38,552 nucleotides of DNA from Sulfurospirillaceae bacterium. GTDB taxonomy: Bacteria; Campylobacterota; Campylobacteria; Campylobacterales; Sulfurospirillaceae. The notes under the pieces were generated by a model, which saw nothing but the letters and a program-made list of their open reading frames with translations, had not been told where the DNA came from and did not search any database. Positions within the stretch are counted from its first letter, which is position 1, and each line of letters begins with the position of its first letter. A program made the translations under genes and the position numbers. The stretch is from the NCBI GenBank assembly GCA_028693565.1, contig JAQUVE010000009.1:1-38552 (forward strand), written 5' to 3'. Shown one piece after another: positions 14,183 through 34,153 of this stretch.

Positions 14183-14956
14183 ATGGAAGAAGAGCTAGAA
14201 GAAGAATCACCTGAACTATCAGACATATCAGAATCAGCTTTTGAGCTGATTGAACTCATCAAAAATAGTATTGATGACTATTTTAATGATGAGTATGAAG
14301 TTATCAAATTTAATGTTAATTTCCTTGAGAGCAATGGATTTGCCTATCAGACTAAAATTGACTACATGAAGCTAAATCGCTTTATTTCTACCGCTTATAA
14401 TACAATTGAAGCCAATGATGTACAAGTGATCGATGGTTTACTCTCTAAATTTTACAAAGATATTATCTTTTTAAACCATTTTTACAAAAATTTCCTTGAA
14501 AAAGCTAAAGATATTCAGAGTATTTTTCGGTACAATTTTCTCAAGCCCCATCAAGGTACAGCCGCATTGTATGCTCTCTTGAGTGAAAAAGAAGAAAAGA
14601 AAACAGGTAAAAAAGAGAAAGACCCTAGTGAAGATGAACTTAACGCTTTTGAAGAGTATATGAAAGAAGAGTTTCGTCATGAATTTCTCAAAGAATATGA
14701 GATATACAGTGAAAATTTGCGTGAAATTATCAATACTAAAACATACTACTTTGATAAATTACTGTGGGCTGAGGCACGAAAGAGCAATGCCATCAATGAA
14801 TTTTTTAAAAAATCAAAACGTGTCGATGCTGAATTTAGCGATGAGTTGTCCACAAAAATATTTATCCAGCAATACCTTCATACCATTGATATGTCACATA
14901 CTAAAGATGTCAAGTGGCACCAATATCTGCATAATGTCTTAACGATGATGGATTAG
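14183..14956 (+). CDS. Hypothetical acidic, helix-rich protein (257 aa)
   Basis: Not recognised. The N-terminus is very acidic (MEEELEEESPELSDISESAF), and the rest is predicted mainly helical with many charged residues (EKEEKKTGKKEKDPSEDEL at about residues 135-153), no signal peptide and no membrane segment. AGGTGG provides a ribosome-binding site before the ATG at 14183. Its stop is only two bases before the cyclic-nucleotide-binding gene, so the two are translated together and probably act together. A partner or target of that cNMP-binding protein is the simplest guess. It lies 55 bases after the sugar transferase and may share its transcript. Confidence 0.75.
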   Translation: MEEELEEESPELSDISESAFELIELIKNSIDDYFNDEYEVIKFNVNFLESNGFAYQTKIDYMKLNRFISTAYNTIEANDVQVIDGLLSKFYKDIIFLNHFYKNFLEKAKDIQSIFRYNFLKPHQGTAALYALLSEKEEKKTGKKEKDPSEDELNAFEEYMKEEFRHEFLKEYEIYSENLREIINTKTYYFDKLLWAEARKSNAINEFFKKSKRVDAEFSDELSTKIFIQQYLHTIDMSHTKDVKWHQYLHNVLTMMD

Positions 14957-14958
14957 TC

Positions 14959-15468
14959 ATGGTCATAAAAAATACGAATTATACAAAACGAGAAATAGAG
15001 CGTATGCTAGAGGCTGGTCATGCCAATAAGCTCAGTATTTCGCAAGAGAAACTTTTAGAGATTAGCGATAAAATTTACCTTTTTGATGGCATTAAAAAAG
15101 AAGATATTATTCGTATGACGGTGAATGTTAAGTTTAAGCGGTATGCCAAAGGCGATGTTATTATGAATGCGGGCGACAAAGGCCGTGAAATCTATTTTAT
15201 CTTATACGGTACAGCGGTTGTCGTAGTAGAAGGTAAAAAGATAGTTGCGACGATTGATTCTCCTCATATGTTTGGAGAAATGGCCTTTTTAACGAAAAAA
15301 CCTCGCAATGCAACGATACTTGCTTATAAAGAGGGCACGACCATCATCTCATTTGAGGTCAATGATGAAAAATGCAGCGAGATTTTTTCATACCCTTTTG
15401 CACAACTCTATCGCAATATCGCTCTTGATCTTACTGGAAAGATTGAAAAAACAAATCTTAAAAAATAG
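14959..15468 (+). CDS. Stand-alone cyclic-nucleotide-binding domain protein (169 aa)
   Basis: Residues ~30-155 form a CRP/PKA-type cNMP-binding domain: ISDKIYLFDGIKKEDI, YAKGDVIMNAGDKGREIYFI, GTAVVVVEG, and the phosphate-binding cassette FGEMAFLTKKPRNATILA with the conserved Glu and Arg that hold cyclic nucleotide. No helix-turn-helix or other output domain follows, so it is not a CRP-type transcription factor; it would act by protein contact, most simply with the product of the gene two bases upstream. It converges on the minus-strand operon containing an adenylate cyclase and a phosphodiesterase, ending two bases from the latter. A cAMP sensor role is inferred from this arrangement. Confidence 0.87.
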   Translation: MVIKNTNYTKREIERMLEAGHANKLSISQEKLLEISDKIYLFDGIKKEDIIRMTVNVKFKRYAKGDVIMNAGDKGREIYFILYGTAVVVVEGKKIVATIDSPHMFGEMAFLTKKPRNATILAYKEGTTIISFEVNDEKCSEIFSYPFAQLYRNIALDLTGKIEKTNLKK

Positions 15469-15470
15469 CC

Positions 15471-17831
15471 TTAAAGCGTACTAAAGTCAACCGTAACTTC
15501 ATCAATACTACTTTCAGGTAAGAATTTTTGTGCATACTCTAGATAGAGCCCTGATTCATAAAAAAACTTTACCAGCTCCTTATCCAAATCATCATCTTTA
15601 GCCATAAAATAGAGTATTTTCATTGATGCTGAGACAGGATTGCCTTTTTTGTACGGTCTATCACTTGCTGTGAGTGCTTCAAAAATATCTGCAATGGCTA
15701 AAATGCGTGCTTCAAAACTAATTTCATCCCCTTTAAGTCCTTGCGGATAGCCTTTGCCATTGATTTTCTCATGGTGGTTTCCTGAAATTTGAGGGATTTC
15801 TTTATATTTTTTTGGAAAAGGTAGATTGTTTAAAATATCGATGCTAATTTTTGCGTGTTCATTGATGATGTCACGTTCTTCTTTAGTAAGAGTACCTCTT
15901 TGAACACTTAAATTATAGGCTTCATTCTCCGTAAGAAGTCGATAGCTTACACCGTCAATCACCCATGGGTTTTCCTGCATTGATTGTATTGACGCAATGG
16001 ACTCATCACGTGTAAATTCGCTACCTTTATTGCTGGTTTGAATAATTTGTAAGTACTCTTCTAATAGTTGTGTCTTTTCGATTTTTTCTTGGCTGCTTAT
16101 CTTGCCTTCTAGAAAAGCGATATGCAAAGCTTTTTTAATCACTTCAAAACGGCATTCAACCAGTGCAATGCGGTCAAAAATAGTTTCAAGCTTAGTCGAT
16201 TTGTCGACGACTTGTTCAGGCGTGGCAAGTTTTCCAATGTCATGCATCAAGGCTGCAAAATTGATCTGTCTTAATTCTTTAAAGGAAAAGGTTTTATGTG
16301 CATAGGTGGTCGAATCTTCATTGACAGCATCAGCGATCATTTGTGTTAAATAAACCATACGCTCAATATGCCCAGCAGTATACGGGGACTTCTTGCTAAT
16401 TGCAAAAATGATGCTACGTAAAAAGGCTTCAAGTAAGGTTTCCAAGCCTTGAATAAGTGTTGTGTTGGTAATGGCAATAGCAGCTTGTGAAGCTAATGAG
16501 AGGCATATTTTTTCATCTTCTCCACTAAACGCAATTGCTTCATGATGGTGAATATTAGGAGATTGCTTATTAAGCAATTGTAAAACACCGATGACTTCTT
16601 GTTCATGGTTAATCAATGGAATAACAAGCATTGATTTTGAGCGATACCCTGTGCCTTCGTCAAATTTTTTGGTTCCTTCAAAAGAAAACCCTTCAACAGT
16701 GTAAACATCAGGAATATTAATAACTCGATTTTCAAGGGCACATGTCACCGCAACCATCTTAGTGTTGGGTGAACCATCTTCAAGATAAAGAGATAATGGA
16801 GGCCATTTAATGGGTTCGCTCGTTCCTCCCATTTTAATGCCTAAAGAGTCCGTTTGTGCTACTTTAAAACGCAGTGTTCGCTCATCCATCAAATACAATG
16901 TTCCAGCATCCGCATTGGTCAGTTGTTTAGCTTCTGTGACAATCATTTCCAAAAGGGCATCATGATTGGCGTGTGCAGAGAGGGCGGCACCAATGCGCGT
17001 TAATTTGGTAATGATTTCTTGCGTTGAGCTTTTTTCAGGCGCATGTAATAGTCCTGTTTGAAGGTCTATGGTTTCACCATCATGTAAAATATGGTCTTCT
17101 GGGATACCTATATTGATAAGTTCTTGTGTCGTTTGTTGCGTATAAAATGGCTTAAGGTGATTGATATAGATGTGAACTTCTGGGCGACGTAAAAATGCCA
17201 ACTCTTCATTAAAAATTTTTGAAGTAAGGTGCTTACTATCTTTAGCGATTTTCGCAAGGTTATTTGGAAAAGAAACATCTATGATTAAGGCCTTAATATC
17301 AGTGCGGTTATTGATAGTATCCCAAAGTATTGGATTGCGATAGGTATCTCCTGAGAAGATAACACTGCTACCATTTTGTTCAATAATATAGCCACAGCAT
17401 GCAATGGTGTGGTTAGAGAGGATAGGCGTTAAGGTAATACCATCTTCTACTTCATAAGCTTTATTAGGTTCAATTTCGATATAGATAACGGAAGGTGTGG
17501 TTTGTCCTAGAAGGTTTATTTCGCTAAAGTTTGGCCAAATATCCCAGTTAAAAATATGTTTTTTGATAGTAGCTATGGTTTCAGGTAGTCCATAAAGATA
17601 CAAAGGATGCGTACGATTGGCAAAGCTATTATCCATTAAGAAAGCACTATCGATGATGTGGTCTAGGTGTGCGTGTGAAAAAAAGATATGGTTAATATGT
17701 AAGGCCTCTTCTCCAAGAGCATGCATGATATTGCCTGCGTCAATGAGTGTGTGCTTTGTAACTTGCAGGCATGTCGTAAAGGTATTAGTAGATCGACTGC
17801 CTTGAGCGCCTAAAATTTTGATATGACTCAT
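15471..17831 (-). CDS. Class II cyclic-nucleotide phosphodiesterase-like MBL domain fused to GAF and HD-GYP domains
   Basis: A 786-residue three-domain protein. Residues ~1-255 are metallo-beta-lactamase fold with HAHLDH at 53-58, SNHTIACCGY, IFSGDT and SKHLT, resembling class II cAMP phosphodiesterases (CpdP-like). Residues ~270-430 are a GAF domain (DALLEMIVTEAKQLTNADAG, then LEDGSPNTKM and MLVIPLINHEQEVIGVLQLLN). Residues ~460-770 are HD-GYP: LMHDIGK with H530-D531, a long insertion, then HHEKINGKGYPQGL (GYP at 694-696), close to the canonical HHERLDGSGYP. It could hydrolyse both a 3',5'-cyclic mononucleotide and c-di-GMP. It is the last gene of the operon, three bases after the cyclase gene. 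Confidence 0.88.
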   Translation of the reverse strand: MSHIKILGAQGSRSTNTFTTCLQVTKHTLIDAGNIMHALGEEALHINHIFFSHAHLDHIIDSAFLMDNSFANRTHPLYLYGLPETIATIKKHIFNWDIWPNFSEINLLGQTTPSVIYIEIEPNKAYEVEDGITLTPILSNHTIACCGYIIEQNGSSVIFSGDTYRNPILWDTINNRTDIKALIIDVSFPNNLAKIAKDSKHLTSKIFNEELAFLRRPEVHIYINHLKPFYTQQTTQELINIGIPEDHILHDGETIDLQTGLLHAPEKSSTQEIITKLTRIGAALSAHANHDALLEMIVTEAKQLTNADAGTLYLMDERTLRFKVAQTDSLGIKMGGTSEPIKWPPLSLYLEDGSPNTKMVAVTCALENRVINIPDVYTVEGFSFEGTKKFDEGTGYRSKSMLVIPLINHEQEVIGVLQLLNKQSPNIHHHEAIAFSGEDEKICLSLASQAAIAITNTTLIQGLETLLEAFLRSIIFAISKKSPYTAGHIERMVYLTQMIADAVNEDSTTYAHKTFSFKELRQINFAALMHDIGKLATPEQVVDKSTKLETIFDRIALVECRFEVIKKALHIAFLEGKISSQEKIEKTQLLEEYLQIIQTSNKGSEFTRDESIASIQSMQENPWVIDGVSYRLLTENEAYNLSVQRGTLTKEERDIINEHAKISIDILNNLPFPKKYKEIPQISGNHHEKINGKGYPQGLKGDEISFEARILAIADIFEALTASDRPYKKGNPVSASMKILYFMAKDDDLDKELVKFFYESGLYLEYAQKFLPESSIDEVTVDFSTL

Positions 17832-17834
17832 TAT

Positions 17835-20048
17835 TTATCCTTTACTCGTGTGCACAAATACACCATTAAAATTTTCAGGAGGCATTTCAATATAGTGCTG
17901 ACAGCGTTCTATATAAATGTTATAGATAGCATGATTTGTTTTGTGCTCATTTGCTTCTAGTACTTTAAAACGTTCCAATGCTTTTTCAAATAAAGCCTCT
18001 TTATACCACACAATAGCTTCATGGTACAGTGAAAGTTCTTCTATGATAGCCTCTTTTGTAACATCAAAGAGATACTCTTCGGCAATATCAAAATCATGTA
18101 TTTGCCAAATTTCGATTGGTTCGCTTTTTCCTTTTACTGTTACAAGATCCAAAAATCGGTAGATGTAAGCTCCCGTCAATTGGGATTTTGTAAAGTTAGA
18201 GATGTTAAGCTTCGAGTTGTAATATTTACATAAAGACTCAAGTCTAGATCCAAGATTGATAGGGTCTCCAATAACGGTATAATCACTTCGCCCGCTTGAG
18301 CCCATCTCTCCGACAATTGCGACACCTGTATTTAGACCGATACCGATATCGATAATAGGAACGCCTTTTTTAGCAGACATTTTGACAACGTTTTCAAATT
18401 CAAGGTTGTTCTTAATCGTTTCATTGAGTGATTTTAAGCGGTGGAGTTGTTCAAGTGCTGCACTTACAGCTTTATCGGCATGATTTGGTACATCCAATGG
18501 GGCATTCCAATACGCCATAATAGCATCACCAATGAACTTATCAACCGTTCCCCCTGTTTTGATGATGATTTCAGTCATAGGGTCCATATAGGTATTCATA
18601 AAACGGATAAGATTTTTTGGGTTCCCCATCGCTTCTGAAATGTTGGTAAAGTTACGAACATCAGAGAAAAAGACGGTAATCTCCTTTTCCATACCCGCTA
18701 GTACGTTATCTTTACTGGATAAGATATCATTCATAACTGCTGGGCTTACTTTACTTGCGAACTTACCTTTAATGAGTTCTTTTTGTTTAATCTCTAGAAA
18801 ATAATTTACACCTTGACCAATTAAAAAGAGAGAGTTGATACAAAAAAATGGAATAACAGTGTTAAAGATAATGCCATCGTTCATCATATAAAGATAGTGT
18901 TCCGTAATTAAAATAACATTGAGTGTTATTAATGCAAGGAAACTTGTAATCGCACTGGCAAAAAGAAGACTTATAAACGTTAACAAACAAATAAATATAA
19001 TACTGAGCATATCAACACCCACAGCCCAAATGGGTTTTGCTAGAAAGTGTTGGTTAAGAATGTTATCTAATGCATTGGCGTGAACTTCAACCCCAGGATA
19101 GACGCTATCAAAAGGAGTGCTTCGTAAGTCGAGTAAGCCCGCTGCAGAAGTTCCTAACAAAGCAATTTTATCTTTTATAAAGAGAGGGTTCACTGTTTTG
19201 TTGTAAACATCAAGTGCGGAGATATAGCGAAAGCTTTTTTGTTTTCCCCGATAATTGACTAACATACGGCCATAATAATCTGTGGGTATCAAAATGTCTC
19301 CTAGTTGTATACCGCTAACCCCTTTTTCATCGTATTGAATAGCAATTTTCTTTTGGTCAAAAACTATGCGCATCATTTCTAAGCTGAGTGCAGGATAAAT
19401 AATTCCATTGTATTCCATGACTAATGGAATACTACGTACGATACCATCACTATCGGGGATAGTGTTAAAGTAACCATTTGAATAAGCACTCTGCTGAATT
19501 TGAGGAATATTTAAAATGGTGCGATAAGGTTTGATAATCGTAGAGTTTTGAGGTTTATTTTGTTCTATGATGATGGCGTTACTTTTTGGAGAAGACTCTG
19601 GTGCAATGCCATCATTTTGTAGAGCAAAAACATAGCCAATAATGGTAGGTGTATTGCCAATCGTTTCTGCCAAAAGAGCATCATAATCCACCACATTGTT
19701 ATAAGGCATCCCTAATTTTTGCAATACTTTTTTAGGGGAACTATTGTCTGCTTCTGCAAAGACAACGTCTAATCCTAAAATGGCAATACCGTAATCACTT
19801 AGATTTTGAAGGAGTGTGGCAACTTTATCTCTACTCCATGGCCACTGGCCCAGTGATTTTAAACTTTTCTCATCAATATCAATAATGACAATAGAAGCAT
19901 CACCTTTTTCCTCACCTCGAAACATAAACATCAAATCTTTGATTTTATATTCAAAAGGCATAAAAACGTTAGAAAATTTATAGTAGCCAACAACTCCTAC
20001 AACGATGATAAGTAGTGTAAAAAGAAGTTGGACTACGGATTTCTTCAT
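17835..20048 (-). CDS. CHASE2-domain class III adenylate cyclase
   Basis: A 737-residue membrane enzyme. An N-terminal membrane helix precedes an extracytoplasmic CHASE2 domain (~30-330; IVIIDIDEKSLKSLGQWPW, YNVLLAET-like segment, IFKD... and GLLDLRSTPFDSVYPGVEVHA). Three membrane helices follow (~340-420), then a class III cyclase domain. Metal-binding Asp463 (FFSDVRNFT) and Asp508 (DKFIGDAIMAYW) are present, Lys504 and the DYTVIGD Asp select adenine, and INLGSRLE supplies the transition-state Asn and Arg. A C-terminal ~80-residue helical/TPR-like tail is additional. All catalytic residues are intact, so cAMP synthesis is expected. It starts two bases after the barrel gene; the periplasmic CHASE2 domain could sense the FecR/Slam-like components encoded upstream. 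Confidence 0.92.
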   Translation of the reverse strand: MKKSVVQLLFTLLIIVVGVVGYYKFSNVFMPFEYKIKDLMFMFRGEEKGDASIVIIDIDEKSLKSLGQWPWSRDKVATLLQNLSDYGIAILGLDVVFAEADNSSPKKVLQKLGMPYNNVVDYDALLAETIGNTPTIIGYVFALQNDGIAPESSPKSNAIIIEQNKPQNSTIIKPYRTILNIPQIQQSAYSNGYFNTIPDSDGIVRSIPLVMEYNGIIYPALSLEMMRIVFDQKKIAIQYDEKGVSGIQLGDILIPTDYYGRMLVNYRGKQKSFRYISALDVYNKTVNPLFIKDKIALLGTSAAGLLDLRSTPFDSVYPGVEVHANALDNILNQHFLAKPIWAVGVDMLSIIFICLLTFISLLFASAITSFLALITLNVILITEHYLYMMNDGIIFNTVIPFFCINSLFLIGQGVNYFLEIKQKELIKGKFASKVSPAVMNDILSSKDNVLAGMEKEITVFFSDVRNFTNISEAMGNPKNLIRFMNTYMDPMTEIIIKTGGTVDKFIGDAIMAYWNAPLDVPNHADKAVSAALEQLHRLKSLNETIKNNLEFENVVKMSAKKGVPIIDIGIGLNTGVAIVGEMGSSGRSDYTVIGDPINLGSRLESLCKYYNSKLNISNFTKSQLTGAYIYRFLDLVTVKGKSEPIEIWQIHDFDIAEEYLFDVTKEAIIEELSLYHEAIVWYKEALFEKALERFKVLEANEHKTNHAIYNIYIERCQHYIEMPPENFNGVFVHTSKG

Positions 20049-20050
20049 AA

Positions 20051-21358
20051 TTAAAATGTGTAAACTGCATTCAGTAATGCAGTAATTTTGTCATAATTAA
20101 AAGGATCATGATTAGAACTATTGTCGGAGTACGTTACAATTGCATTGACCATAAAATTATCTCTAATGCTATATCCCAGTGTTAACTCATACTCATCCCG
20201 TGTATCAGCTCGCTTTGTTCCATATAAGGCATCTGTCTTATCATAATCAGTAGTGCTATAAGTGTATCCTACCGATGTTCGAATACCATTTGTAAAGGTT
20301 TTTGCTAACTGTGCTGCGTAGCTCCATCCTGTGCTAGCGACATCGGTACGACCTTGGTTAACTTCGCCATTGGACGTATAACTTGTTGTTAAGGAGAGCA
20401 TAATAGGATCAGTTCCTAACGCCTTTTTGTAAGAGGCAAAGAAAATATTGGCAATGACATCTTGATTACGATCTTGGTCATAATAGCCTCTTTTATACGT
20501 ATAGCCTCCTTCAACCTGCGACGATGAGTCTAAAAGGTAGGATGCTTTGGCGGTTGAGCTGAGATTGTACATATAGCCTTTACCATCTAAATAGATACGA
20601 TCATAGGTTAGAGGGAAAGAGAGTTTATAGCTATTTTCACTGTAAGTAGGCGCCATTGTGAGTGAAAAAAGTGAAAGGTCATTGTTGCTTTGTTTCGAAT
20701 TCATTTTGGTATACGCAACAAAATTATCTTCTAAAGTCCACCCTTTACGTTCCCCAAAATCATAATTATGGTTGAGCACAAAAGTTGCAAAAAGATTGCT
20801 ATCGCTGACTTTATCATTACCCGTTATTGGGACATTAAAAGCAGGTACGATAAACTCTTTATGCCCTATGTCATTATTGGCGTTGCTGTCATATCCTCCA
20901 CCCACAATGAGGGCGCCATTAAAAATATGACGCGTCATAGACTCATCAATTTTTCTTTGAAAAGCCAGTGCCACTTCTCGGATATTAGTAGGGATATTTT
21001 CTTTTAAAACCGCATCTAGTTCAGCTTTGGCTGATTCAAATTGTTGTGTTTCAAAATAAAGGCGTGCTAATTCCATATGCGTTCTAGTATGGCTAGGATT
21101 GAGTATTAGAACCCTATCAAAAGCTGTGATAGCTTGGTCGTACATCTTAAGCTCTAAGGCACAACGCCCAAGGAAAAAGTTCAACTCAGCATTTTCAGGA
21201 GTATTGAGGCTAAGTTCTTCAAATAAAGCATACGCTTTTTGAAAATCTCCAGTATTATAGCTTTGTTGCGCTTCTTGATAAATTCTTTCCGCAGGTGCTC
21301 CTTCTGCGTATAAGCTAACAGAAAGAAGTGCTATGAGAGTTACATGAGAGAGTTTCAT
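20051..21358 (-). CDS. TPR plus outer-membrane beta-barrel protein, Slam-like (DUF560/type XI secretion)
   Basis: A 435-residue protein with a signal peptide (ending YAEGA), TPR repeats over residues ~20-135 (YQEAQQSYNTGDFQKAYALF, AELNFFLGRCALELKMYDQA, THMELARLYFETQQFESAKA), then ~290 residues of alternating strands starting GALIVGGGYDSNAN and ending in YTF, the aromatic end expected for a barrel. This two-part build (periplasmic TPR, C-terminal barrel, Y/GYDSN at the junction) matches surface lipoprotein assembly modulators. The upstream gene encodes a protein with three TbpB-like units, the domain carried by known Slam cargo, and the genes overlap by one base (TAATG). The family call is moderate because barrel sequences diverge strongly. 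Confidence 0.75.
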   Translation of the reverse strand: MKLSHVTLIALLSVSLYAEGAPAERIYQEAQQSYNTGDFQKAYALFEELSLNTPENAELNFFLGRCALELKMYDQAITAFDRVLILNPSHTRTHMELARLYFETQQFESAKAELDAVLKENIPTNIREVALAFQRKIDESMTRHIFNGALIVGGGYDSNANNDIGHKEFIVPAFNVPITGNDKVSDSNLFATFVLNHNYDFGERKGWTLEDNFVAYTKMNSKQSNNDLSLFSLTMAPTYSENSYKLSFPLTYDRIYLDGKGYMYNLSSTAKASYLLDSSSQVEGGYTYKRGYYDQDRNQDVIANIFFASYKKALGTDPIMLSLTTSYTSNGEVNQGRTDVASTGWSYAAQLAKTFTNGIRTSVGYTYSTTDYDKTDALYGTKRADTRDEYELTLGYSIRDNFMVNAIVTYSDNSSNHDPFNYDKITALLNAVYTF

Positions 21359-22767
21359 TATCGTACCGCCTTAAATACGCCAACAGCGGTTGCCGTTGCC
21401 GTTGCTGCATTAAAAGTACCACCAACCGCTTGAGCTTGGTCTCCATAAAATTTACCTTTGATAGCACCTGCCGTGACAGGAACTGCTAATTCTGTTGTTA
21501 CTGTTCCTGTTAATCCATCACTAAACACACCATTGGTCACCGTAGGGGTGGTAAGTGTTGGTTTTAAATTCCATAGTTTATCATTAGCGGAAAATTTAAT
21601 CCAGCTATAGCTAGAGTCGTTATAGATGGAATTAGCTCCCCCACCAAAATCAAATTTGAGTTGAACACTATTGGCTGCATTGTTGTCTATATCATAGAGC
21701 ATACCAGCTTCTTCAACATTGCCTAAAACTTTACCTGTGTATGTGTAGTAAGTATTGGGTGTAAGTGCATTGATATATGCTATAGCGGCTGTTGCATTGG
21801 TCTCATCCCCTCCTACCCAGTAGTTTTGAGTATTGGTGAGTTTGGAGCTATCTTGCGAATTAACTGCCCAATATCCCCATGAAACATAGTCGTTTGGTTC
21901 AGTATTGTCCGTTACCATATACCCTTTGTTTGCATCAAAATCTTTAATAGCAAAATTATTTCTATCAGTGTAAGTCATACTAGCATCCCCAAGACCGAGG
22001 GCAGATTGACTAAGTGTAAAATTACCTGCTCGATCTGCGTAAGTGATACTTCCTGAAATTCTTGGCGTATTAGTAGTGTTAATAGTAAGGTCTAGCGTAT
22101 CAGATGAACTTAGATAAAGAGCATTACTTACCGTGTATTCTGAAGTAGCAAATCCTGTAAAGTTAACACTGCCTACATCAGTTGTAATAGTGTCTAGGGC
22201 TGGACTGAAGCTTAAAGGGTAATAAAACCCACTGGTTTTAATGGTTTTAAAAACGCCTAAAGCGGTAAGGTTACTATCGCTTGTTGCTTGAAATGTTCCC
22301 CCTAAAGCCTTTGCTTCATCTCCATAAAAAACACCATCAATAGAACTACTAATGATGCTAGCACCACCTCCATTAGAGGTTCCACTATCAAAAAAACCAC
22401 TAAATGTGCCATTAGTTGTGAAGGCCATGTCTGCTCCAGGAGGTTTTAAAAGCCATGTTGCTCCATTGGATACAAAAGTAATATAACTGTGATACGCATC
22501 AATGGGATCTAATTCGCCAAGATTAAATTGGAACTGAACTTTGTTAGTTACAATATCTTCATCAATAGCGTAGCGTGTGCCACTCGCATAAGTACTACCT
22601 ATAACATTGCCCGTATAGGTAAGTATAGGAGCTTCATTAGGATAAATGCGTAAACTGTAAATATACCCGCCAGCGTTTTCTCGATTAAGCCCAGCTACCC
22701 AGTAGTTATCGGCACTCGCTATAAGCGTGCTATTGTTGTCCATCTCTGCTGATGTCCATTTACCCAA
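21358..22767 (-). CDS. Downstream part of the split FecR/TbpB-like protein (469 aa)
   Basis: The downstream open frame, containing the rest of unit two (GVFYGDEAKALGGTFQATSD) and all of unit three (GKFYGDQAQAVGGTFNAATA), ending GVFKAVR. The TTG at 22767 is merely the first possible start after the frameshift, within the LYWGKWTS repeat text, with no ribosome-binding site and no signal peptide; it is unlikely to be translated on its own. It overlaps the Slam-like gene by one base (TAATG), so ribosomes arriving here would feed the next gene; a frameshift therefore could also lower downstream expression. Confidence 0.6.
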   Translation of the reverse strand: MGKWTSAEMDNNSTLIASADNYWVAGLNRENAGGYIYSLRIYPNEAPILTYTGNVIGSTYASGTRYAIDEDIVTNKVQFQFNLGELDPIDAYHSYITFVSNGATWLLKPPGADMAFTTNGTFSGFFDSGTSNGGGASIISSSIDGVFYGDEAKALGGTFQATSDSNLTALGVFKTIKTSGFYYPLSFSPALDTITTDVGSVNFTGFATSEYTVSNALYLSSSDTLDLTINTTNTPRISGSITYADRAGNFTLSQSALGLGDASMTYTDRNNFAIKDFDANKGYMVTDNTEPNDYVSWGYWAVNSQDSSKLTNTQNYWVGGDETNATAAIAYINALTPNTYYTYTGKVLGNVEEAGMLYDIDNNAANSVQLKFDFGGGANSIYNDSSYSWIKFSANDKLWNLKPTLTTPTVTNGVFSDGLTGTVTTELAVPVTAGAIKGKFYGDQAQAVGGTFNAATATATAVGVFKAVR

Positions 22768-25058
22768 TACAGATCACTACTTGAGCTACCAAAAGAGCTA
22801 AGACTAATCGCTACACCGTCAGTACTTAAGTTTGGCGTATCACGATAAAGGTTTATCGTCCCTTCTACGGCATTAGAGTTGACAAGCTCAAATTCCACGT
22901 CATCGGTAGTGCTATATGTAGGGTCACTATTGAAGATATAGGTGGATGTTGCGAGTCCTGTTAGGTAAGTACGCGTTTCAGCAGCAACTTTACTCGCTAC
23001 AAATGCACCAATAGCCGAGCTACTTGTATCGGAGTTATTTGCAGTAAAAGTTCCCCCTAAAGATCCTGCATTAGCCCCATAAAAAGAACCACTCATATTT
23101 CCTCCAATACTACCTGTACCTGATAGCATCGCCAAAAAGGTACCATCTGCTAAAGCATTTGCCGATCCTAGATAAGTGGTTATATCCCAATAACCATTAG
23201 CGGTGAAACGGATGTGACTATCGGGCCATTTAATTGGTGCTGCGTTATTACCAAATGTGAAGACAAGTTTCACTTCGTTGGTGGCATCATTGATAGGATC
23301 AATGGCAAAGGATTGCCCACCAGCATTGTAAACAGCACCCATAGATTTGCCTAAATAAGTATAGGTTGTATCGGTATAAAGATCATTATAAATAGTTGCG
23401 ATATGAGAGGCAGCTGTTGCTACATCGGCCACTTTTCCAGCAACCCAAAAATTTTCACTTGTGGGCAGTAGTGTTGTATTATCATCAGAAGTAGATGTCC
23501 ATTTTCCCCAAAGTACATTGCTAACAGGAGAGGAAACGCTGCTAAGTTGCGAGATATTAGAATCCGAGATAGACACCGTAAATAGAGTAGAAGATGTAGC
23601 ACTTACAGAAGTCGAATCAAAAGAGACGGGATTATCACCAGGGAGAGTTATTAGACCTACTGCCGAATTGTTAGCTACAAGAACACCAAGGGGGTTTTGA
23701 TAATCATATGCCATAACGCCTGATTCTATATACGAAGATGTTGCTACTCCACTAAGTTCTAGAGAAACTGTTGGCGTAGAGTTGCCTCCACCGCCACCGC
23801 CTCCTGTTGGAATGGCGGTACAATTTGGATAAGTTCCAGTGGTGCCAGTTGGACATGTGAGTGCAACACAATTAGGGTACGTTCCAGTGGTGCCAGTTGG
23901 GCATGTGAGTGCAACACAATTTGGATAGGTTCCAGTGGTGCCAGTTGGACATGTGAGCGCAACACAATTTGGATAGGTTCCACTTTGTAAAGCCGTACAT
24001 GTTCCACAATCTGGATAGGTTCCTGTAGTTCCCGCAGGACATGTGAGTGCAACACAATTTGGATAAACACCAATAGTATTGACTGGACAAGCTTGTGCTA
24101 TACAATTTGGATAGGTTCCGCTTGTTCCTGAGGGGCACGTTTGATTTTCTAATTGGTTTTGTAAATCATCGCTTGGGATACCTAAATCATCGGCTACACC
24201 TTGAAGAACAGCACCTTGTGTTGAATTTTGTAAGTTAGTTTGTTGTGCTTGGCTGGCTGCTGTTGGGGTAAAATTTTGTGGAGTTGGTGTTCCTGTACCA
24301 CCTGTCGGTGGGGTATCATTTGCTGGTGGATTACTGGTTGGAGGGGTGTTTCCACTAGGTTGTTGCTCGCCTGTTCCTCCTGCGGGTGGTGGTGTTGGTC
24401 CTCCCCCTCCTAGACCTTGGTTGAGTTGATCTAAATCGTGTGGCGTAAACGGTGCTGGTGGTGTAGGTGGCGGTGGAAGCTCACCCGGCCCTGCAGGAGG
24501 AAGCATGCGTGTCCAACTACCAGCTGGTACGGTAACAGGAGGGTTAGGGGAACCTAAAGCACCAACACTAATTTGACCTGATAAACAAAAAATATTTTCT
24601 GGTAAAGGTGGCATGTTAGGCGATGGTGGCGGTGGCGGTAAGAACAAACCTACTGTGGTGCCACGAATTCCTATGGTAGCGGTTTTTGTTTCTAATGTGA
24701 AATTTTCAGGAGAAGCTTTGCCGATTCTTCCTGTAATGCTTTTAAAAGTACCTTGGTTAAATTTAAATTTTGCTTTGGGTGAAGCGTTATCATTAAGGTA
24801 TTCTTCGATTTTAAATTCGCTTTCACTACCCAGTGTAATGACCGTTTTATCTTCAAAAATTAACTGAAGCTGTCCATTTTTTAAAGTTTTTATAGTATCT
24901 TTTTCTTCTATGCTCATACCACTTTTTAAAGAGATTGCTTGTGCCCCTCGCTGAGCAAAAGCTTCGCCTTTTAAGAGAGAGACTTTGCCAACTGAAGCAA
25001 GAAGAGATGACGACCACAGAAATGCTAAGATTGCAAGAATACGGATGATTGATGACAT
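22719..25058 (-). CDS. FecR-domain protein, upstream part of the split gene (779 aa)
   Basis: The upstream open frame of the split surface protein described for 21358-25058. It contains the Sec signal peptide (MSSIIRILAILAFLWSSSLLA, cleaved at ...LLA-SVGK), FecR domain, Pro/Gly linker, Cys repeats, the complete first TbpB-like unit (ending GGTFTANNSDTSSSAIGAFV) and the start of the second. No lipobox Cys is present, so it is not a lipoprotein. After LYW the frame is wrong: the last ~15 residues have no counterpart in the repeat pattern. If the frameshift is real, a truncated protein with one full unit is made. Confidence 0.75.
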   Translation of the reverse strand: MSSIIRILAILAFLWSSSLLASVGKVSLLKGEAFAQRGAQAISLKSGMSIEEKDTIKTLKNGQLQLIFEDKTVITLGSESEFKIEEYLNDNASPKAKFKFNQGTFKSITGRIGKASPENFTLETKTATIGIRGTTVGLFLPPPPPSPNMPPLPENIFCLSGQISVGALGSPNPPVTVPAGSWTRMLPPAGPGELPPPPTPPAPFTPHDLDQLNQGLGGGGPTPPPAGGTGEQQPSGNTPPTSNPPANDTPPTGGTGTPTPQNFTPTAASQAQQTNLQNSTQGAVLQGVADDLGIPSDDLQNQLENQTCPSGTSGTYPNCIAQACPVNTIGVYPNCVALTCPAGTTGTYPDCGTCTALQSGTYPNCVALTCPTGTTGTYPNCVALTCPTGTTGTYPNCVALTCPTGTTGTYPNCTAIPTGGGGGGGNSTPTVSLELSGVATSSYIESGVMAYDYQNPLGVLVANNSAVGLITLPGDNPVSFDSTSVSATSSTLFTVSISDSNISQLSSVSSPVSNVLWGKWTSTSDDNTTLLPTSENFWVAGKVADVATAASHIATIYNDLYTDTTYTYLGKSMGAVYNAGGQSFAIDPINDATNEVKLVFTFGNNAAPIKWPDSHIRFTANGYWDITTYLGSANALADGTFLAMLSGTGSIGGNMSGSFYGANAGSLGGTFTANNSDTSSSAIGAFVASKVAAETRTYLTGLATSTYIFNSDPTYSTTDDVEFELVNSNAVEGTINLYRDTPNLSTDGVAISLSSFGSSSSDLYWVNGHQQRWTTIARL
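23806..24137 (-). repeat. 48-bp tandem repeat encoding Cys-pair units
   Basis: Seven tandem units with consensus CPTGTTGTYPNCVALT (16 residues, 48 bases); the last three are nearly identical at DNA level and the first four have diverged, one shortened by two residues. Each unit carries two Cys, so disulfide-closed loops in the periplasm or on the surface are likely. High identity of the last copies makes copy-number change by slippage plausible. Confidence 0.85.
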
Positions 25059-26371: not shown

Positions 26372-28714
26372 ATGAAAGTAGAGATCTCACGAAGGAGATT
26401 TCTTCAAGGTAGTGTGGCTATGTCAATCGCTGGAGGAGTAACGCTAAGTTCTTCTTCTGTGTTAGCAAGTGCCGCAACTGCTGCCAATGTAAAGCTTGGC
26501 AATGAAGAGAAAAACGTAGCGACACTTTGTGAAATGTGTGTTAATAAATGTGCAGCCATTGCACATGTGCGAAATGGTGTAGTCACAAAGCTAGATCCAA
26601 ACCCCTTATTCCCAAAATCACGCAACATGCTTTGTGCTCGTGGGAATGCAGGTGTTCAAGCCTTGTATGATCCAGATCGTATTAAGTATCCATTAATTAG
26701 AGATGGTGAAAAAGGAAGTGGTAAATTTAAGCGTGTTAGTTGGAACGAAGCTTTTGCTTATATTGAAGAGAAACTAACAAAAATTTTAGATGAAGAGAAA
26801 GATAATCGATCAACGGTTGCCTTTTGCGCGGGTGAAGGTATGGCTGAACATACGTTTAAAAACTTTTTTACGGAGTTTGGTTCAGCGCACTTCTTAAACC
26901 ACGCAAGCCTTTGTCTTGCCACTACGGTTTCAGGCTATTCATTAACTATCGGTGGATATGGTCAAGCAGATCTTGATAATGCAAAATATGTCATTATGGC
27001 AGGGGCAAACCGAGCCGAAGCGATTGTAACGCCAGATACCATGGACTTTTTTAAACGTACCAGTGGACGAGGAGCAAAACTCGTGGTCGTTGATCCTCGC
27101 TTTACTAACACTGCCGCAAAAAGTGATAAATGGTTAGGGATTAACGTAGGCACAGATTTAGCATTTGTACTTGCACTAACCTATGTTGCTATTAAAGAGG
27201 AACGATACAATAAAGCATTTGTAGAGACTTCTTTTGCGGATTTTGAAGATTATAAAAACCATATCTTAAACAATGCCTATACGCCAGAATGGGCAGAAAA
27301 AATCACAGGAATAAAAGCGGCAGACATTTACGAAGTTGCTCGTGACTTTATGGCGCATGCTCCTCAAGCGATTTATTATCAAGGTAGACGAACCACATGG
27401 TCTAAAAATGATTTCCAATTACGACGTGCACAAGCTATTTTTACAGCATTAGCGGGAAGTGTTGATGTGAAGGGTGGTATCTGTTTTGGTAAAAGCTTGC
27501 CTCTTGTTCCACACGAAGCAGCAGCACCACTGTATGCGCAAGCCAAGGCTCGTATTGAAAAAGGTGAAGCAGCGGTAGTAGGAGGTTCAGGTTCATGGGT
27601 AGCTTTTAGAAATATGGTTCTTGAAGGAAGAAGCCCATATCCTATTCGGGCACTTTTTAACTACAAGCATAATCCAATGCAAAATATGCCAAACAATAAA
27701 AAAACACAAGATTTTTTGAAAAAATTGGACTTAGTAGTAACAATTGATACGATGCCAAGCGATACAGTGATGCTCAGTGATGTTGTTTTACCAGAGTGTA
27801 CATATTTAGAGCGAACAGACCCCGTTGTCTCTTATGGTGGTATTGAGCCTTCCATCGCACAACGCAATAAAGTGGTTGATCCAATGTTTGAGAGCAAACC
27901 AGTCATGGACATCATGCGGGGTTTGAGTGCAAAACTTTCAAAGCCACTTTTTGAAATCACCAAAAAGTATGATGAAGATGTTCAATCGGCCATTGCAGAT
28001 GGTAGCGAAGAAGAGGTGTATCAAGAGTATGATCTAACCAAAGCGTTTTTACATTCACAAGAAGAACTTAATGAGCACGCTGTTGCAAAATATGAAGGTG
28101 CTGCAGAAATCCTTAAAACCAAAGGTGTTTTTTATCCTGAGATGAATGAGTATTTCAAAAAAATGGGTGTAAATGATTACGAATACTATCCAGAAAATAA
28201 GCGATACTATTCTGTTTTAGGTGGAAAACTCAAAACGCCATCGGGCAAAATCGAGTGTAATCTTGAAGCATTAACCAAGCGTGGAATCGATGCGATGCCT
28301 ACATGGAAAAAAGAGTATGAGATGGTTATTCCTGAGGGTAAATTTAGATTTATCACAGGGCGTCATGCACAGTTTACACAATCAGGTAGTAGCAACAACA
28401 AAATGCTTCTAGACTTAGTTCCGCAAAATTATGCGTGGATTAACAAACGTGTAGCTGCCAAAATGGGTATAAAATTTGGTGATACCATTGAAGTTACTAG
28501 TAAAGTCGGTAAAGCAACGATTAAAGCCTATCCAACAGAGAAAATTGGACCAAATACACTCTTCTTTATTCACGGATTTGGTGTTTATTCAAGTGCTTTA
28601 ACATTAGCGCACAATAATGGAGGCAATGATTCTTCTATTATTGAAGATAGTATTGAGCCAATGCATGGCGCAAGTTGTCTTCACGATACTCTTGTAGATA
28701 TTAGAAAGGTTTAA
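26372..28714 (+). CDS. Molybdopterin oxidoreductase catalytic subunit, PsrA/PhsA family (copy 1)
   Basis: A 780-residue periplasmic molybdoenzyme. The N-terminus MKVEISRRRFLQGSVAMS carries a Tat twin-arginine signal. The first domain has the [4Fe-4S] motif CEMCVNKC...NMLCARG, and the remainder the bis-MGD domains (GQADLDNAKYVIMAGANRAE; AIYYQGRRTTWSKNDFQLRR; DTMPSDTVMLSDVVLPECTYLE) ending in the C-terminal cap domain (FITGRHAQFTQ). This is the PsrA/PhsA/SrrA branch that reduces polysulfide, thiosulfate or related sulfur compounds, using quinol electrons. Its iron-sulfur and membrane partners follow at two- and nine-base gaps. The exact acceptor cannot be read from sequence; sulfur compounds are favoured by the downstream rhodanese lipoprotein. 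Confidence 0.88.
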   Translation: MKVEISRRRFLQGSVAMSIAGGVTLSSSSVLASAATAANVKLGNEEKNVATLCEMCVNKCAAIAHVRNGVVTKLDPNPLFPKSRNMLCARGNAGVQALYDPDRIKYPLIRDGEKGSGKFKRVSWNEAFAYIEEKLTKILDEEKDNRSTVAFCAGEGMAEHTFKNFFTEFGSAHFLNHASLCLATTVSGYSLTIGGYGQADLDNAKYVIMAGANRAEAIVTPDTMDFFKRTSGRGAKLVVVDPRFTNTAAKSDKWLGINVGTDLAFVLALTYVAIKEERYNKAFVETSFADFEDYKNHILNNAYTPEWAEKITGIKAADIYEVARDFMAHAPQAIYYQGRRTTWSKNDFQLRRAQAIFTALAGSVDVKGGICFGKSLPLVPHEAAAPLYAQAKARIEKGEAAVVGGSGSWVAFRNMVLEGRSPYPIRALFNYKHNPMQNMPNNKKTQDFLKKLDLVVTIDTMPSDTVMLSDVVLPECTYLERTDPVVSYGGIEPSIAQRNKVVDPMFESKPVMDIMRGLSAKLSKPLFEITKKYDEDVQSAIADGSEEEVYQEYDLTKAFLHSQEELNEHAVAKYEGAAEILKTKGVFYPEMNEYFKKMGVNDYEYYPENKRYYSVLGGKLKTPSGKIECNLEALTKRGIDAMPTWKKEYEMVIPEGKFRFITGRHAQFTQSGSSNNKMLLDLVPQNYAWINKRVAAKMGIKFGDTIEVTSKVGKATIKAYPTEKIGPNTLFFIHGFGVYSSALTLAHNNGGNDSSIIEDSIEPMHGASCLHDTLVDIRKV

Positions 28715-28716
28715 TT

Positions 28717-29280
28717 ATGGCACGTTATGGAATGGCACTCAATTATAAAAATTGTATTAATTGTCGAGCATGTGAAACAGCATGTAAAGAAGAAAATGGT
28801 GTGTTACTAGGGCGTGATAACTATCGAATTTGGGTAGGCGTTAAAGAAGCAGAAGGAGAATTTCCGAATATCTCTATCATGTCTCAAGTCTATCACCCAA
28901 GTCAATGCCAACATTGTGATAACGCTCCATGTCAGCAAGTATGTCCAACCAATGCGACATACTATGATGAAAATCATGTCGTTCGTGTTAATCCTACAAA
29001 ATGTATTTTATGTACCTATTGTATTAACGCGTGTCCGTATGATGCACGTTATGTTGACAACAGAACGGTCACGGTTGATAAATGTAATTTTTGTTCCGAC
29101 ACACGTTTGGCAAATGGGGAAACCACAACAGCTTGTCAGGCAACATGTCCGACAAAAGTAAGAGTATTTGGTGATTTAGATGATCCTAAGAGTGAGATTT
29201 CTCAACTTCTTGCTACAAAAGAGCACAGAAGAGTGAAAGAGCACTTGGGAACTGAGCCAAAACTATTTTATATATTGTAG
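28717..29280 (+). CDS. Ferredoxin-like electron-transfer subunit, PsrB/PhsB family (copy 1)
   Basis: A 187-residue protein with 16 Cys in four clusters, the standard DMSO-reductase-family arrangement for four [4Fe-4S] centres: CINCRACETAC, CQHCDNAPCQQVCP, CILCTYCINACP and CNFC...CQATCP. It carries electrons from the membrane subunit to the molybdenum subunit and would travel with the latter through the Tat system, as it has no signal of its own. It starts two bases after the catalytic gene and precedes the membrane-anchor gene, a classic three-subunit order. Confidence 0.93.
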   Translation: MARYGMALNYKNCINCRACETACKEENGVLLGRDNYRIWVGVKEAEGEFPNISIMSQVYHPSQCQHCDNAPCQQVCPTNATYYDENHVVRVNPTKCILCTYCINACPYDARYVDNRTVTVDKCNFCSDTRLANGETTTACQATCPTKVRVFGDLDDPKSEISQLLATKEHRRVKEHLGTEPKLFYIL

Positions 29281-29289
29281 GAGTATAAG

Positions 29290-30456
29290 ATGAATTCATT
29301 TTCACTAAAACAACTTTTTTCATTTGAAAAAACACCACTCAATTTATTGATGGCATTTATTACAATTGGCTTGCTTGCAGCATTTGCCGCTGGTGCAGTT
29401 ATGTATTTGCTTCATGGTCATCACGCTTACAATGTAACACGTCAGCATCCATGGGGTCTTTTAATTTCAATGTACGTATTCTTTGTTGTATCAAGCACAG
29501 GTCTTTGTATTATCTCTTCTATTGGCCATGTTTTTGGGATTCCTGAGTTTCAACAAATTGGTAAACGTGCCATTGCGGGTGCGATTATTACTATTTCTTC
29601 AGGCTTTGCCGTTATTGGTTTAGAAATAGGTCATCCTATGACGATGGTCATTTACAATGTGCTAACCCCTGGACTTACCTCTGCTATTTGGTGGATGGGA
29701 ACATTGTATGGTTTGTATCTAGCGTTTATCTGTATGGAATTTTTCTTTTTAGCGATTAAAGAAAACCATAAATTATCTAAGTTTTTTGGTATCGGTGGTC
29801 TTTTAGTAGGTCTTGCGGCACACTCTAACTTAGGTGCTGTTTTTGGTTTCTTAATTTCACGTCCATCAGCCAATGGTGTATTTTATCCAGTATATTTCAT
29901 CCTCTCAGCGATGATTACAGGTTGTTACCTTGTTTTCTTAATGTATGGATTTCGTTATAAGATGAACTTTCCAGAGAGAGTTACTGTCATGCTCGTAAAA
30001 CTTTCAAAAATTTTAGGAATGCTTCTAGCGGTACTTATTTTCTTTGAAATTTGGAAAATTTTAACAGCACTTTATGGTGATATGCCTGAGCGTGCGGCTA
30101 CTATTTTACATACCATTAAACATCCAAATTTTTGGTTTGGCGAAGTCATCCTTGGTATGTTAATTCCTTTTACGATTATCTTACTCAGTAATGCAAAAGC
30201 GATAAAAGCTACTGTTTATGCTTCAATCACAGGTATGGTTGGTATCTTTTTTATGCGATACGATTTAGTCCATGATACATTGATCTATCCTATGACGATG
30301 TTGAAGCGCAGCGAATATCAGCTACCTCCAACTTTTTTAGAGTATTTCCCATCTCCTGCTGAATTTGCAGTGGGTTTTGGTGGCATTGGTCTTTGTCTCT
30401 TTCTTTACTATATTGCAGACAAAGTTTTCAATTTAGATGAGACAAGTACGCATTAA
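29290..30456 (+). CDS. NrfD/PsrC-family membrane anchor and quinol-oxidising subunit (copy 1)
   Basis: A 388-residue polytopic protein with about nine to ten membrane segments, starting LMAFITIGLLAAFAAGAVMYLL. Conserved NrfD-type positions include FVVSSTGLCIISSIGHVFG, GLEIGHP and GTLYGLYLAFICMEFFFL. It anchors the catalytic and iron-sulfur subunits at the periplasmic face and oxidises menaquinol. It is longer than the 317-residue Wolinella PsrC, fitting the larger ten-helix class of NrfD-like proteins. GGAG at 29280-29283 lies before the ATG. Confidence 0.9.
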   Translation: MNSFSLKQLFSFEKTPLNLLMAFITIGLLAAFAAGAVMYLLHGHHAYNVTRQHPWGLLISMYVFFVVSSTGLCIISSIGHVFGIPEFQQIGKRAIAGAIITISSGFAVIGLEIGHPMTMVIYNVLTPGLTSAIWWMGTLYGLYLAFICMEFFFLAIKENHKLSKFFGIGGLLVGLAAHSNLGAVFGFLISRPSANGVFYPVYFILSAMITGCYLVFLMYGFRYKMNFPERVTVMLVKLSKILGMLLAVLIFFEIWKILTALYGDMPERAATILHTIKHPNFWFGEVILGMLIPFTIILLSNAKAIKATVYASITGMVGIFFMRYDLVHDTLIYPMTMLKRSEYQLPPTFLEYFPSPAEFAVGFGGIGLCLFLYYIADKVFNLDETSTH

Positions 30457-30485
30457 GTTATTCAATTAAAAATTAAAGGGAAAAA

Positions 30486-30803
30486 ATGGAAAAGGTGTTT
30501 AAATTGTTTTGGGCAGTTATATTAACATTGGGATTTCTATCGACTTCCGTGTGGGCAGATATTGACAAAGGTCAAAAAATTTATAGTAAGCAGTTTAAAA
30601 AAGTATGTGGTTTTAGTGGAAATGTAATGGCTAGAAAGCACAAACAATCAGAGTGGCATGATATTTTTCATGAAGGTAAACTCAATGAAGAATTGTTAAA
30701 AGAATGTCCAAATGCAAGTGCATTAAAAAAATCTGATTTACAACATGTGTATGATTTTTTGTATAACTATGCATTAGACAGTGGAAACACAGCTACATGT
30801 TAG
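30486..30803 (+). CDS. Cytochrome-c-like periplasmic protein lacking a CXXCH haem motif
   Basis: A 105-residue protein with a signal peptide (MEKVFKLFWAVILTLGFLSTSVWA) and a mature domain beginning DIDKGQKIYSKQFKKVCGFSG, followed by ARKHKQSEWHDIFHEGKL and the C-terminal SDLQHVYDFLYNYALDSGN. The overall pattern (GQKIYSKxF..C....H...EW, Y-D-F-L-Y-x-Y-A) is that of small Campylobacterota cytochrome c-like proteins, yet no CXXCH is present: only a lone Cys and a downstream His at 12-residue distance remain. It is 30 bases after the membrane-anchor gene and probably in that operon. It may have a structural, haem-free or non-canonical haem role. Confidence 0.75.
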   Translation: MEKVFKLFWAVILTLGFLSTSVWADIDKGQKIYSKQFKKVCGFSGNVMARKHKQSEWHDIFHEGKLNEELLKECPNASALKKSDLQHVYDFLYNYALDSGNTATC

Positions 30804-30826
30804 ATATATAGTAGCTTTACATATGG

Positions 30827-30864
30827 GTACGCTGTTTATTAAATGGCGTACTTCATGGTACAAT
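30827..30864 (+). promoter_or_regulatory. Weak hairpin and putative promoter before the 148-aa gene
   Basis: GTACGC (30827-30832) and GCGTAC (30846-30851) form a short hairpin after the cytochrome-like gene, and TACAAT at 30859-30864 lies 20 bases before the ATG at 30884 with GAAGGA between them. The next gene may thus have its own transcript. Confidence 0.35.
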
Positions 30865-30883
30865 TTTTTAGAAGGATTGAAAT

Positions 30884-31330
30884 ATGAGAAAAATTTTATT
30901 AAGTTTAGTATTGGCAAGTTCAGTTATGATAAGTGCTGATGTTCCTGTGAAGCTAGCTGCGAATGATTGTATCGAAAGTCTTCAAAATGAAGTCATTGGT
31001 ATCATCTATTCCAATTCAATCAAAAAAGATAAATCGATTGAACAATTAACGGAGAAAATTAACAAAACCTTTGAAAAAGATTGTGATGTTAATAGTACGG
31101 AAAACAAAGAACAACGCAAAGCAAAACTTCTAGAAGAAGAAAAAGCAAATGCAACAGTTGAACATGTTTTGATTTTAGATACAACCAAAAATAGTGATGA
31201 TTGTATTGAAACATTACAAAGTGAAATTTCAAAAATTGTTCATTCGAATAAAGAAAATAAAAATAAAGCGATTAAATTGATTATCAAAGGTGATGCCGAT
31301 AATTGTACAAAAGAGCCTGTCAAAAAATAA
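30884..31330 (+). CDS. Periplasmic protein with a tandem-duplicated Cys-containing domain
   Basis: A 148-residue protein with a signal peptide (MRKILLSLVLASSVMISAD). The mature part holds two related ~45-residue units: NDCIESLQNEVIGIIYSNS...IEQLTEKINKTFEKDCDV and DDCIETLQSEISKIVHSNK...AIKLIIKGDADNCT, joined by a charged linker. Each has a DCIE(S/T)LQ(N/S)E start and an acidic-Cys end, so each could close a disulfide. No family is recognised. It lies 80 bases after the cytochrome-like gene in the molybdoenzyme region; its promoter-like TACAAT suggests independent expression. Confidence 0.7.
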   Translation: MRKILLSLVLASSVMISADVPVKLAANDCIESLQNEVIGIIYSNSIKKDKSIEQLTEKINKTFEKDCDVNSTENKEQRKAKLLEEEKANATVEHVLILDTTKNSDDCIETLQSEISKIVHSNKENKNKAIKLIIKGDADNCTKEPVKK

Positions 31331-31727
31331 TCCACAGCCCTTCCTCTAACCTCTAAAAATTATAATAAGACTTCTTCATATCATGATGAAGAAGTCTCTT
31401 CTTTGAAAGAATAAATAAATTTTTGATTTTATTTACATTTTTTTTAATCTAAACCTATAAAAAAACTATATTTTGTCAATTTTTTTAATAAATTTTACTT
31501 TTTATGCTAAAAAATCATCATTTTAATTATAATTGTAAAAAATATTTTACAAAATAAAAAATTATAATTCATGCCTATTTTATCGGTATTTTATTAAAAC
31601 TATAATTTGACATACTTATATTTCAAATTATGATTAATAATATTATAAAGAAATAACCCATACAATGGTGCTGAGAAATAGCCATTTCTTTGGTTTATCA
31701 ACTTAAAATTTAATTTTGGAGAACAGA
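31331..31727 (+). promoter_or_regulatory. Regulatory region of the second molybdoenzyme operon (397 bases)
   Basis: No credible gene is present. Besides the terminator at 31368-31397 it contains the 22-base block at 31529-31550 shared with the first operon's region (19 of 22 identical), centred on the palindrome TTGTAAAA-N4-TTTTACAA (31533-31552). A CTATTTTATCGGTATTTT block follows at 31575-31592. GGAG at 31718-31721 precedes the ATG at 31728. Upstream AT content and shared blocks imply common regulation with the first operon. Confidence 0.5.
31368..31397 (+). terminator. Intrinsic terminator after the 148-aa gene
   Basis: AGACTTCTTCAT (31368-31379) and ATGAAGAAGTCT (31386-31397) form a 12-bp stem with a six-base loop, followed by CTTCTTT. 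It ends transcription of the first molybdoenzyme block. Confidence 0.65.
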
Positions 31728-34151: not shown

Positions 34152-34153
34152 CG

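Follow-up and report, generated by a model that had tools for sequence, protein, structure and literature searches.

A four-gene cAMP cluster of Campylobacterota was described by Mo et al. in 2022 (mBio; PMC9239204), who listed in it a 'FecR outer membrane protein' and a 'TPR protein' and proposed that the genes serve one pathway. The operon analyzed here has the same CHASE2 cyclase, phosphodiesterase, FecR-domain outer membrane protein and TPR protein; the text of Mo et al., however, does not recognize a Slam-type outer membrane protein (OMP) in the TPR protein or TbpB-like cargo in the FecR protein, and offers no mechanism. An earlier interpretation of the locus made from the DNA letters (hereafter, the sequence-only reading) had known of no described system with the full set, a statement that is not supported as it stands in view of this cluster, although the cluster was published without the type XI identification. 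Within the main texts of the open-access papers searched, no paper recognizing a type XI pair in the cluster was found, and an earlier identification elsewhere is possible. The cluster itself is known, and the export pair within it is apparently new.

In type XI systems (PMC8406197, PMC5449769, PMC12282271), an OMP consisting of a TPR domain and a 14-strand barrel (the published topology of Slam, PMC5449769) is encoded next to a protein whose N-terminal part varies and whose C-terminus is a TbpB-like barrel, and our operon has the same arrangement. It differs in that the N-terminus of the cargo is a FecR domain and that the pair shares its operon with enzymes of cyclic-nucleotide metabolism; the type XI papers searched mention neither FecR nor a cyclase. 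The neighborhood set analyzed in one type XI survey did not cover epsilonproteobacteria.

Comparable features are found in other systems. In FecA-FecR surface signaling, FecR passes on a signal from an outer-membrane protein, and a FecR domain is likewise linked to an outer-membrane protein in our locus; in contrast to that system, the output here would be the CHASE2 cyclase and not a sigma factor, and neither a sigma factor nor a TonB-dependent receptor was found in the operon by ORF reading and Pfam. In the BiofilmReg operon (PMC5192318), the gene of a LysM-FecR protein also adjoins that of a CHASE2 sensor, but the sensor is a histidine kinase instead of a cyclase, and neither a Slam-type OMP nor a TbpB-like domain has been reported there. 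Finally, LapA-type adhesins carry a retention module as a periplasmic N-terminal anchor. LapA/LapD resembles our locus in linking a second messenger to a surface protein that such a module holds. It differs in that secretion is of type I, the messenger is c-di-GMP and release is by a protease, and the N-terminal modules are only weakly similar.

The window (the whole analyzed stretch of 38,552 nucleotides) comes from a 2.78 Mb draft genome of a free-living and probably sulfur-metabolizing bacterium. On its minus strand, positions 15471-25058 encode, in the order of transcription, the FecR protein, the TPR-barrel OMP, the CHASE2 cyclase and a protein with MBL, GAF and HD-GYP domains (Table 1). 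The gaps between the genes are 2-3 bases, and the FecR and OMP genes overlap in a TAATG at 21358; ORF reading thus bore out the order, strand, gaps and overlap given in the sequence-only reading. Pfam domains found in the operon were FecR, CHASE2, Guanylate_cyc, PDEase_II/Lactamase_B_2, GAF and HD_5, and scans for promoters and terminators gave nothing better than chance. The OMP is the sole copy detected in the source genome, as is the TbpB-type protein.

Table 1. Features of the operon and of its convergent neighbor, in positions of the window.
Feature	Positions	Strand	Basis and remarks
FecR gene, ORF 1: FecR domain, linker (proline-rich, with Cys repeats), unit 1 and the beginning of unit 2	22719..25058	-	ORF and Pfam reading
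FecR domain, preceded by a signal peptide that has no lipobox	24489..24989	-	PF04773 6e-10; hydrophobic N-terminus, residues 1-26
TbpB-like unit 1 (predicted)	22989..23516	-	Local HMM; PF01298 23 bits, under cut-off
FecR gene, ORF 2: remainder of unit 2, unit 3	21358..22767	-	PF01298 1.1e-10 and structure model
TbpB-like unit 2 (predicted), portion within ORF 2	22237..22767	-	PF01298 26 bits at 22246-22404; no confident fold
TbpB-like unit 3, 8-strand barrel	21361..21825	-	pLDDT about 65-83, helix and 8 strands; NHBA Z 14.6
TPR and 14-strand barrel OMP, SlipAM/DUF560 (type XI) kind	20051..21358	-	Orthologue SlipAM scores and AlphaFold model
CHASE2 class III adenylate cyclase	17835..20048	-	PF05226 1e-63, PF00211 4e-18; motifs and membrane segments
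MBL (class II cAMP phosphodiesterase-like), GAF, HD-GYP protein	15471..17831	-	Pfam and motifs
Single-domain cyclic-nucleotide-binding protein, convergent	14959..15468	+	PF00027 5e-14; also adjacent in L028; operon membership uncertain

Other genes in the window surround the operon. A protein of 257 residues with no Pfam match and the single-domain cNMP-binding protein (14183-15468) are convergent with the phosphodiesterase gene, and the same pair occupies this position in L028. On the other side, 26372-36069 appears by eye to hold two tandem operons resembling molybdopterin oxidoreductase, iron-sulfur and membrane subunits, the first of which seems, also by eye, to be kept at this place throughout the genus.

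The window OMP itself had no SlipAM (PF04575) match at E values up to 1, and its barrel matched no Pfam family. Most orthologues 38-56% identical to it exceeded the Pfam cut-off of 22 bits (30.1, 30.4, 35.6, 36.8 and 29.4 bits), those with 54-56% identity scoring about 30-36 bits; the OMP of L027, 34% identical, had no SlipAM match, and a more distant cyclase-linked OMP (L033) scored 54.6 bits. Members of the family found outside cyclase loci reached 91 bits (L031) and 208 bits (G387). In the AlphaFold model of the OMP (11 sequences; mean pLDDT 84.4), three TPRs and a capping helix are followed by 14 strands, which is the structure that the sequence-only reading had expected. A fold search of the PDB returned porin-type barrels (CymA, OmpG) and TPR proteins, with no Slam structure among the matches listed; these matches fit 14 strands and are uninformative on function. 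The TPR-barrel polysaccharide exporters (BcsC, PelB, PgaA) were also considered for the OMP and not favored, as the model has 14 strands and PgaA is described as 16-stranded. A query built from the cyclase-linked OMPs additionally retrieved OMPs of Xenorhabdus, the neighborhoods of which resemble, by eye, hemophilin-type loci.

The presumed cargo is encoded by a gene that is broken in the window: two ORFs in different frames meet inside unit 2 (22719-22767), where close relatives have a single unbroken ORF. The break could be genuine or could stem from an error of assembly. The signal peptide ends in LLASV, by eye without a lipobox Cys. In the linker between the FecR domain and unit 1, a 48-base tandem repeat of 5.2 copies (23820-24065) encodes a 16-residue Cys-containing repeat (TCPTGTTGTYPNCVAL). 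TbpB_B_D (PF01298) matched the two ORFs at 21361-21522, 22246-22404 and 22989-23111, two of these at the cut-off and one under it, while the C-terminal ORF taken as a whole exceeded the cut-off (1.1e-10). When a profile of 12 cargo sequences was run against the sequences of the PDB, all 19 matches (E up to 10) were TbpB, LbpB or NHBA. The structure model of the cargo ORF was confident for unit 3 only (residues 321-469, a helix and eight strands; mean pLDDT of the whole model, 45), and the top Foldseek matches of this unit were NHBA, TbpB, LbpB, hemophilin and fHbp. The Z score to NHBA was 14.6 (VIA); the membrane 8-strand barrels NspA, Ail and OmpX came next at Z 12, and the specificity for the TbpB kind is therefore carried by the sequence evidence. 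Of the claim that one FecR protein carries three TbpB-like units, three units were retained by sequence and the third also by its fold as a TbpB-like 8-strand barrel; units 1 and 2, which gave no confident model, are TbpB-like as judged by their sequence, and the protein is not one ORF here.

SlipAM scores over the cut-off in orthologues, 14 strands following TPRs, and a unit 3 that resembles known Slam cargo in both sequence and fold support the assignments as Slam and TbpB, and the window OMP and FecR protein are likely a type XI-like pair of exporter and cargo.

Motif reading of the cyclase confirmed all its catalytic residues (D463, K504, D508, T591, N598 and R602), comprising the two metal-binding Asp, the substrate Lys and the transition-state Asn and Arg of class III cyclases; we take this set to be the class IIIb Lys/Thr pattern. 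As the CHASE2 domain sits between membrane segments, it would be periplasmic. Pfam and intact motifs likewise upheld the MBL-phosphodiesterase/GAF/HD-GYP assignment (HAHLDH in the MBL domain, HDIGK at 530 and HHEKINGKGYP at 686 in HD-GYP), from which we infer activities on cAMP and c-di-GMP. The source genome has 11 cNMP-binding matches, which makes cAMP receptors plausible (candidate CRP-type proteins).

We then asked how constant this gene set is among 397 genomes of the phylum. SlipAM was found in 38 genomes, TbpB_B_D in 29 and the cyclase query in 89 (threshold E 1e-20, the weakest of these matches covering CHASE2 only or the catalytic domain only). Of 39 SlipAM matches, 28 lay within 8 kb of a CHASE2 cyclase, with about 0.3 expected, and the linkage of the SlipAM OMP with the cyclase is far beyond chance; as the surveyed genomes are related, the counts are not independent events. 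Among 71 cyclase neighborhoods, 46 had both FecR and the OMP, 18 had neither and seven had one only, two of the seven (L066, L112) running to contig edges. An unrelated porin class, units lacking the TbpB fold and an absence of co-occurrence in related genomes, which the sequence-only reading had named as counting against it, are not what we found; co-occurrence in particular was strong. The cyclase-phosphodiesterase pair occurred without FecR or OMP in three same-genus genomes (G017, G018 and G020; L061-L063), and the SlipAM search gave no match elsewhere in them. In L094 (7870-11136), FecR and the CHASE2 cyclase form one ORF of 1088 residues, either a fusion or the product of a lost stop codon; it was left out as fusion evidence because the latter would look identical.

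The neighborhoods also separate the partner of the OMP from that of the cyclase. Outside cyclase loci, the OMP family adjoins proteins whose only common feature with the window cargo is the TbpB-like domain at the C-terminus, an arrangement that would be anticipated for a type XI exporter with its cargo. In L031 (9074-13862) and L032 (5606-10430), no cyclase is close by, and a SlipAM-type OMP lies beside a protein of 1153 or 1165 residues, respectively, whose C-terminus is TbpB-like; in L034, the partner has 844 residues and the same kind of C-terminus. A classical-looking type XI locus of Campylobacterota (L117, 7715-10817) combines an OMP scoring 208 bits against SlipAM with two lipoboxed proteins that have TbpB_B_D matches and both end in a TbpB-type motif. 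The large partners in L031 and L032 resemble, by eye, a CHAP/von Willebrand A protein.

The cyclase's own partner is FecR, which stands beside it with no OMP detected in L100, L103, L107, L109 and L111, and FecR distances track CHASE2 distances after removal of the catalytic-domain signal (partial r 0.77, 24 loci). Across 12 close loci the OMP barrel tracked the cargo barrel (0.58) and not FecR (-0.03), a covariation that is a hint only, because r dropped to 0.32-0.35 once near-identical loci were thinned. Six loci (L098, L099, L101, L102, L104 and L106) have a short FecR without barrel and keep the OMP, which must therefore act otherwise there or export another cargo. In L100 (7879-8952), next to the CHASE2 cyclase, one protein joins a FecR domain to an OmpA-like barrel of the outer membrane.

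A possible reading, which we favor tentatively, is that the operon encodes a trans-envelope cAMP signaling device with a type XI (Slam-like) export pair at its core. Given its family, fold and linkage, the TPR-barrel OMP would move the TbpB-like barrels at the C-terminus of the FecR protein across the outer membrane. The FecR domain would be held in the periplasm like a retention module, leaving the protein threaded or tethered at the OMP; this idea comes from the weak match of FecR domains to the LapA retention module (NF033682), seen in 16 of 16 relatives and under the curated cut-off (best 4.2e-7), the window protein scoring 18.9 bits against a cut-off of 50 bits. Judged by gene linkage, the periplasmic FecR domain would act on the CHASE2 domain of the cyclase, and surface ligand binding, attachment or export state may thereby alter cAMP synthesis, provided that the signal runs in this presumed direction. 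The MBL-GAF-HD-GYP protein, if as active as its intact motifs imply, would clear cAMP and couple cAMP to c-di-GMP turnover, and CRP-type proteins, for which the genome has several candidates, would read cAMP. Against such a device stand the loci that keep the OMP beside a barrel-less short FecR, the cyclase-phosphodiesterase pairs without FecR and OMP, and the broken FecR gene of the window.

Control might also run from the inside out. The exporter and cargo would then be an ordinary type XI pair, for whose production or use the co-transcribed enzymes set cAMP and c-di-GMP, and the input of CHASE2 would be unrelated to it. This is compatible with type XI pairs lacking a cyclase (L031, L034, L117), with cyclase-phosphodiesterase pairs lacking a type XI pair (L061-L063) and with the exopolysaccharide-type genes adjoining the operon in the window. 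We regard it as rather unlikely, since the fusion of cargo to FecR and the FecR-CHASE2 link in OMP-less loci indicate a physical connection between the surface protein and the cyclase.

We also consider unlikely a relay without export, in which a FecA-like OMP signals through its TPRs to periplasmic FecR and on to CHASE2, with the barrels serving as periplasmic docking domains. In other loci, members of the OMP family stand beside proteins with a TbpB barrel that are lipoboxed or large, much as in type XI systems, and the structural relatives found for unit 3 by sequence are all exported proteins; such a relay would, however, account for the OMP being kept where FecR is short and barrel-less, and classical FecR does relay the signal of an outer-membrane protein.

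Homologues of the CHASE2 cyclase were present in 106 of 370 gammaproteobacterial genomes, and 20 of their neighborhoods, selected largely among the top-scoring matches rather than randomly, were read. FecR was nearby in 12 of the 20. A TPR barrel matching the OMP profile was present in four (L132, L134, L136 and L138), although Pfam SlipAM at E 0.01 matched none of the three tested; a ShlB/FhaC transporter in four (L126, L127, L129 and L140), with a TPS exoprotein in L129; and an autotransporter domain protein in one (L143). Most of the latter five loci also have FecR. The FecR protein of L141 was the one in this set to exceed the cut-off of PF01298. In Nitrincola, also a gammaproteobacterium, FecR with a TbpB-like C-terminus, the OMP and the cyclase occur together with no phosphodiesterase, and the OMPs exceed the SlipAM cut-off. 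Among the ShlB matches listed for the 370-genome sample, eight lay within 4 kb of a cyclase versus 0.26 expected.

FecR/CHASE2 cyclases thus recur next to exporters of the outer membrane that belong to unrelated families (type XI, two-partner secretion, autotransporter). A literature search for a cyclase with two-partner secretion and FecR returned nothing relevant in the accessible papers, and the association may be noted elsewhere. It is conceivable, if somewhat unlikely, that these cyclases form a general export-linked sensor class, in which one periplasmic FecR-CHASE2 module serves unrelated exporters and converts the state of the exporter or the displayed protein into cAMP. Improbable, in our view, is a sensor of export backlog, in which stalled export would let the FecR protein accumulate in the periplasm and switch the cyclase, so that cAMP reports the state of the exporter with no outside ligand: it would suit this recurrence beside unrelated exporters and the periplasmic accumulation and degradation of TbpB when Slam is absent (PMC9090332), but two-partner-secretion loci have FecR as a separate protein, and backlog sensing there would be indirect.

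The analysis places a type XI pair inside signaling operons of Campylobacterota, neighborhoods that one Slam survey expressly left out. It also offers a concrete candidate for what the sensor domain CHASE2 responds to, a stimulus that has been described as unknown (PMC5192318), and leads to a claim open to testing, namely that the export of outer-membrane proteins and the synthesis of a second messenger are coupled. The presence, here and in many relatives, of a type XI-like exporter and its likely cargo in one operon with cAMP-making and cAMP-degrading enzymes suggests that the exporter serves in sensing or controlling something at the cell surface.
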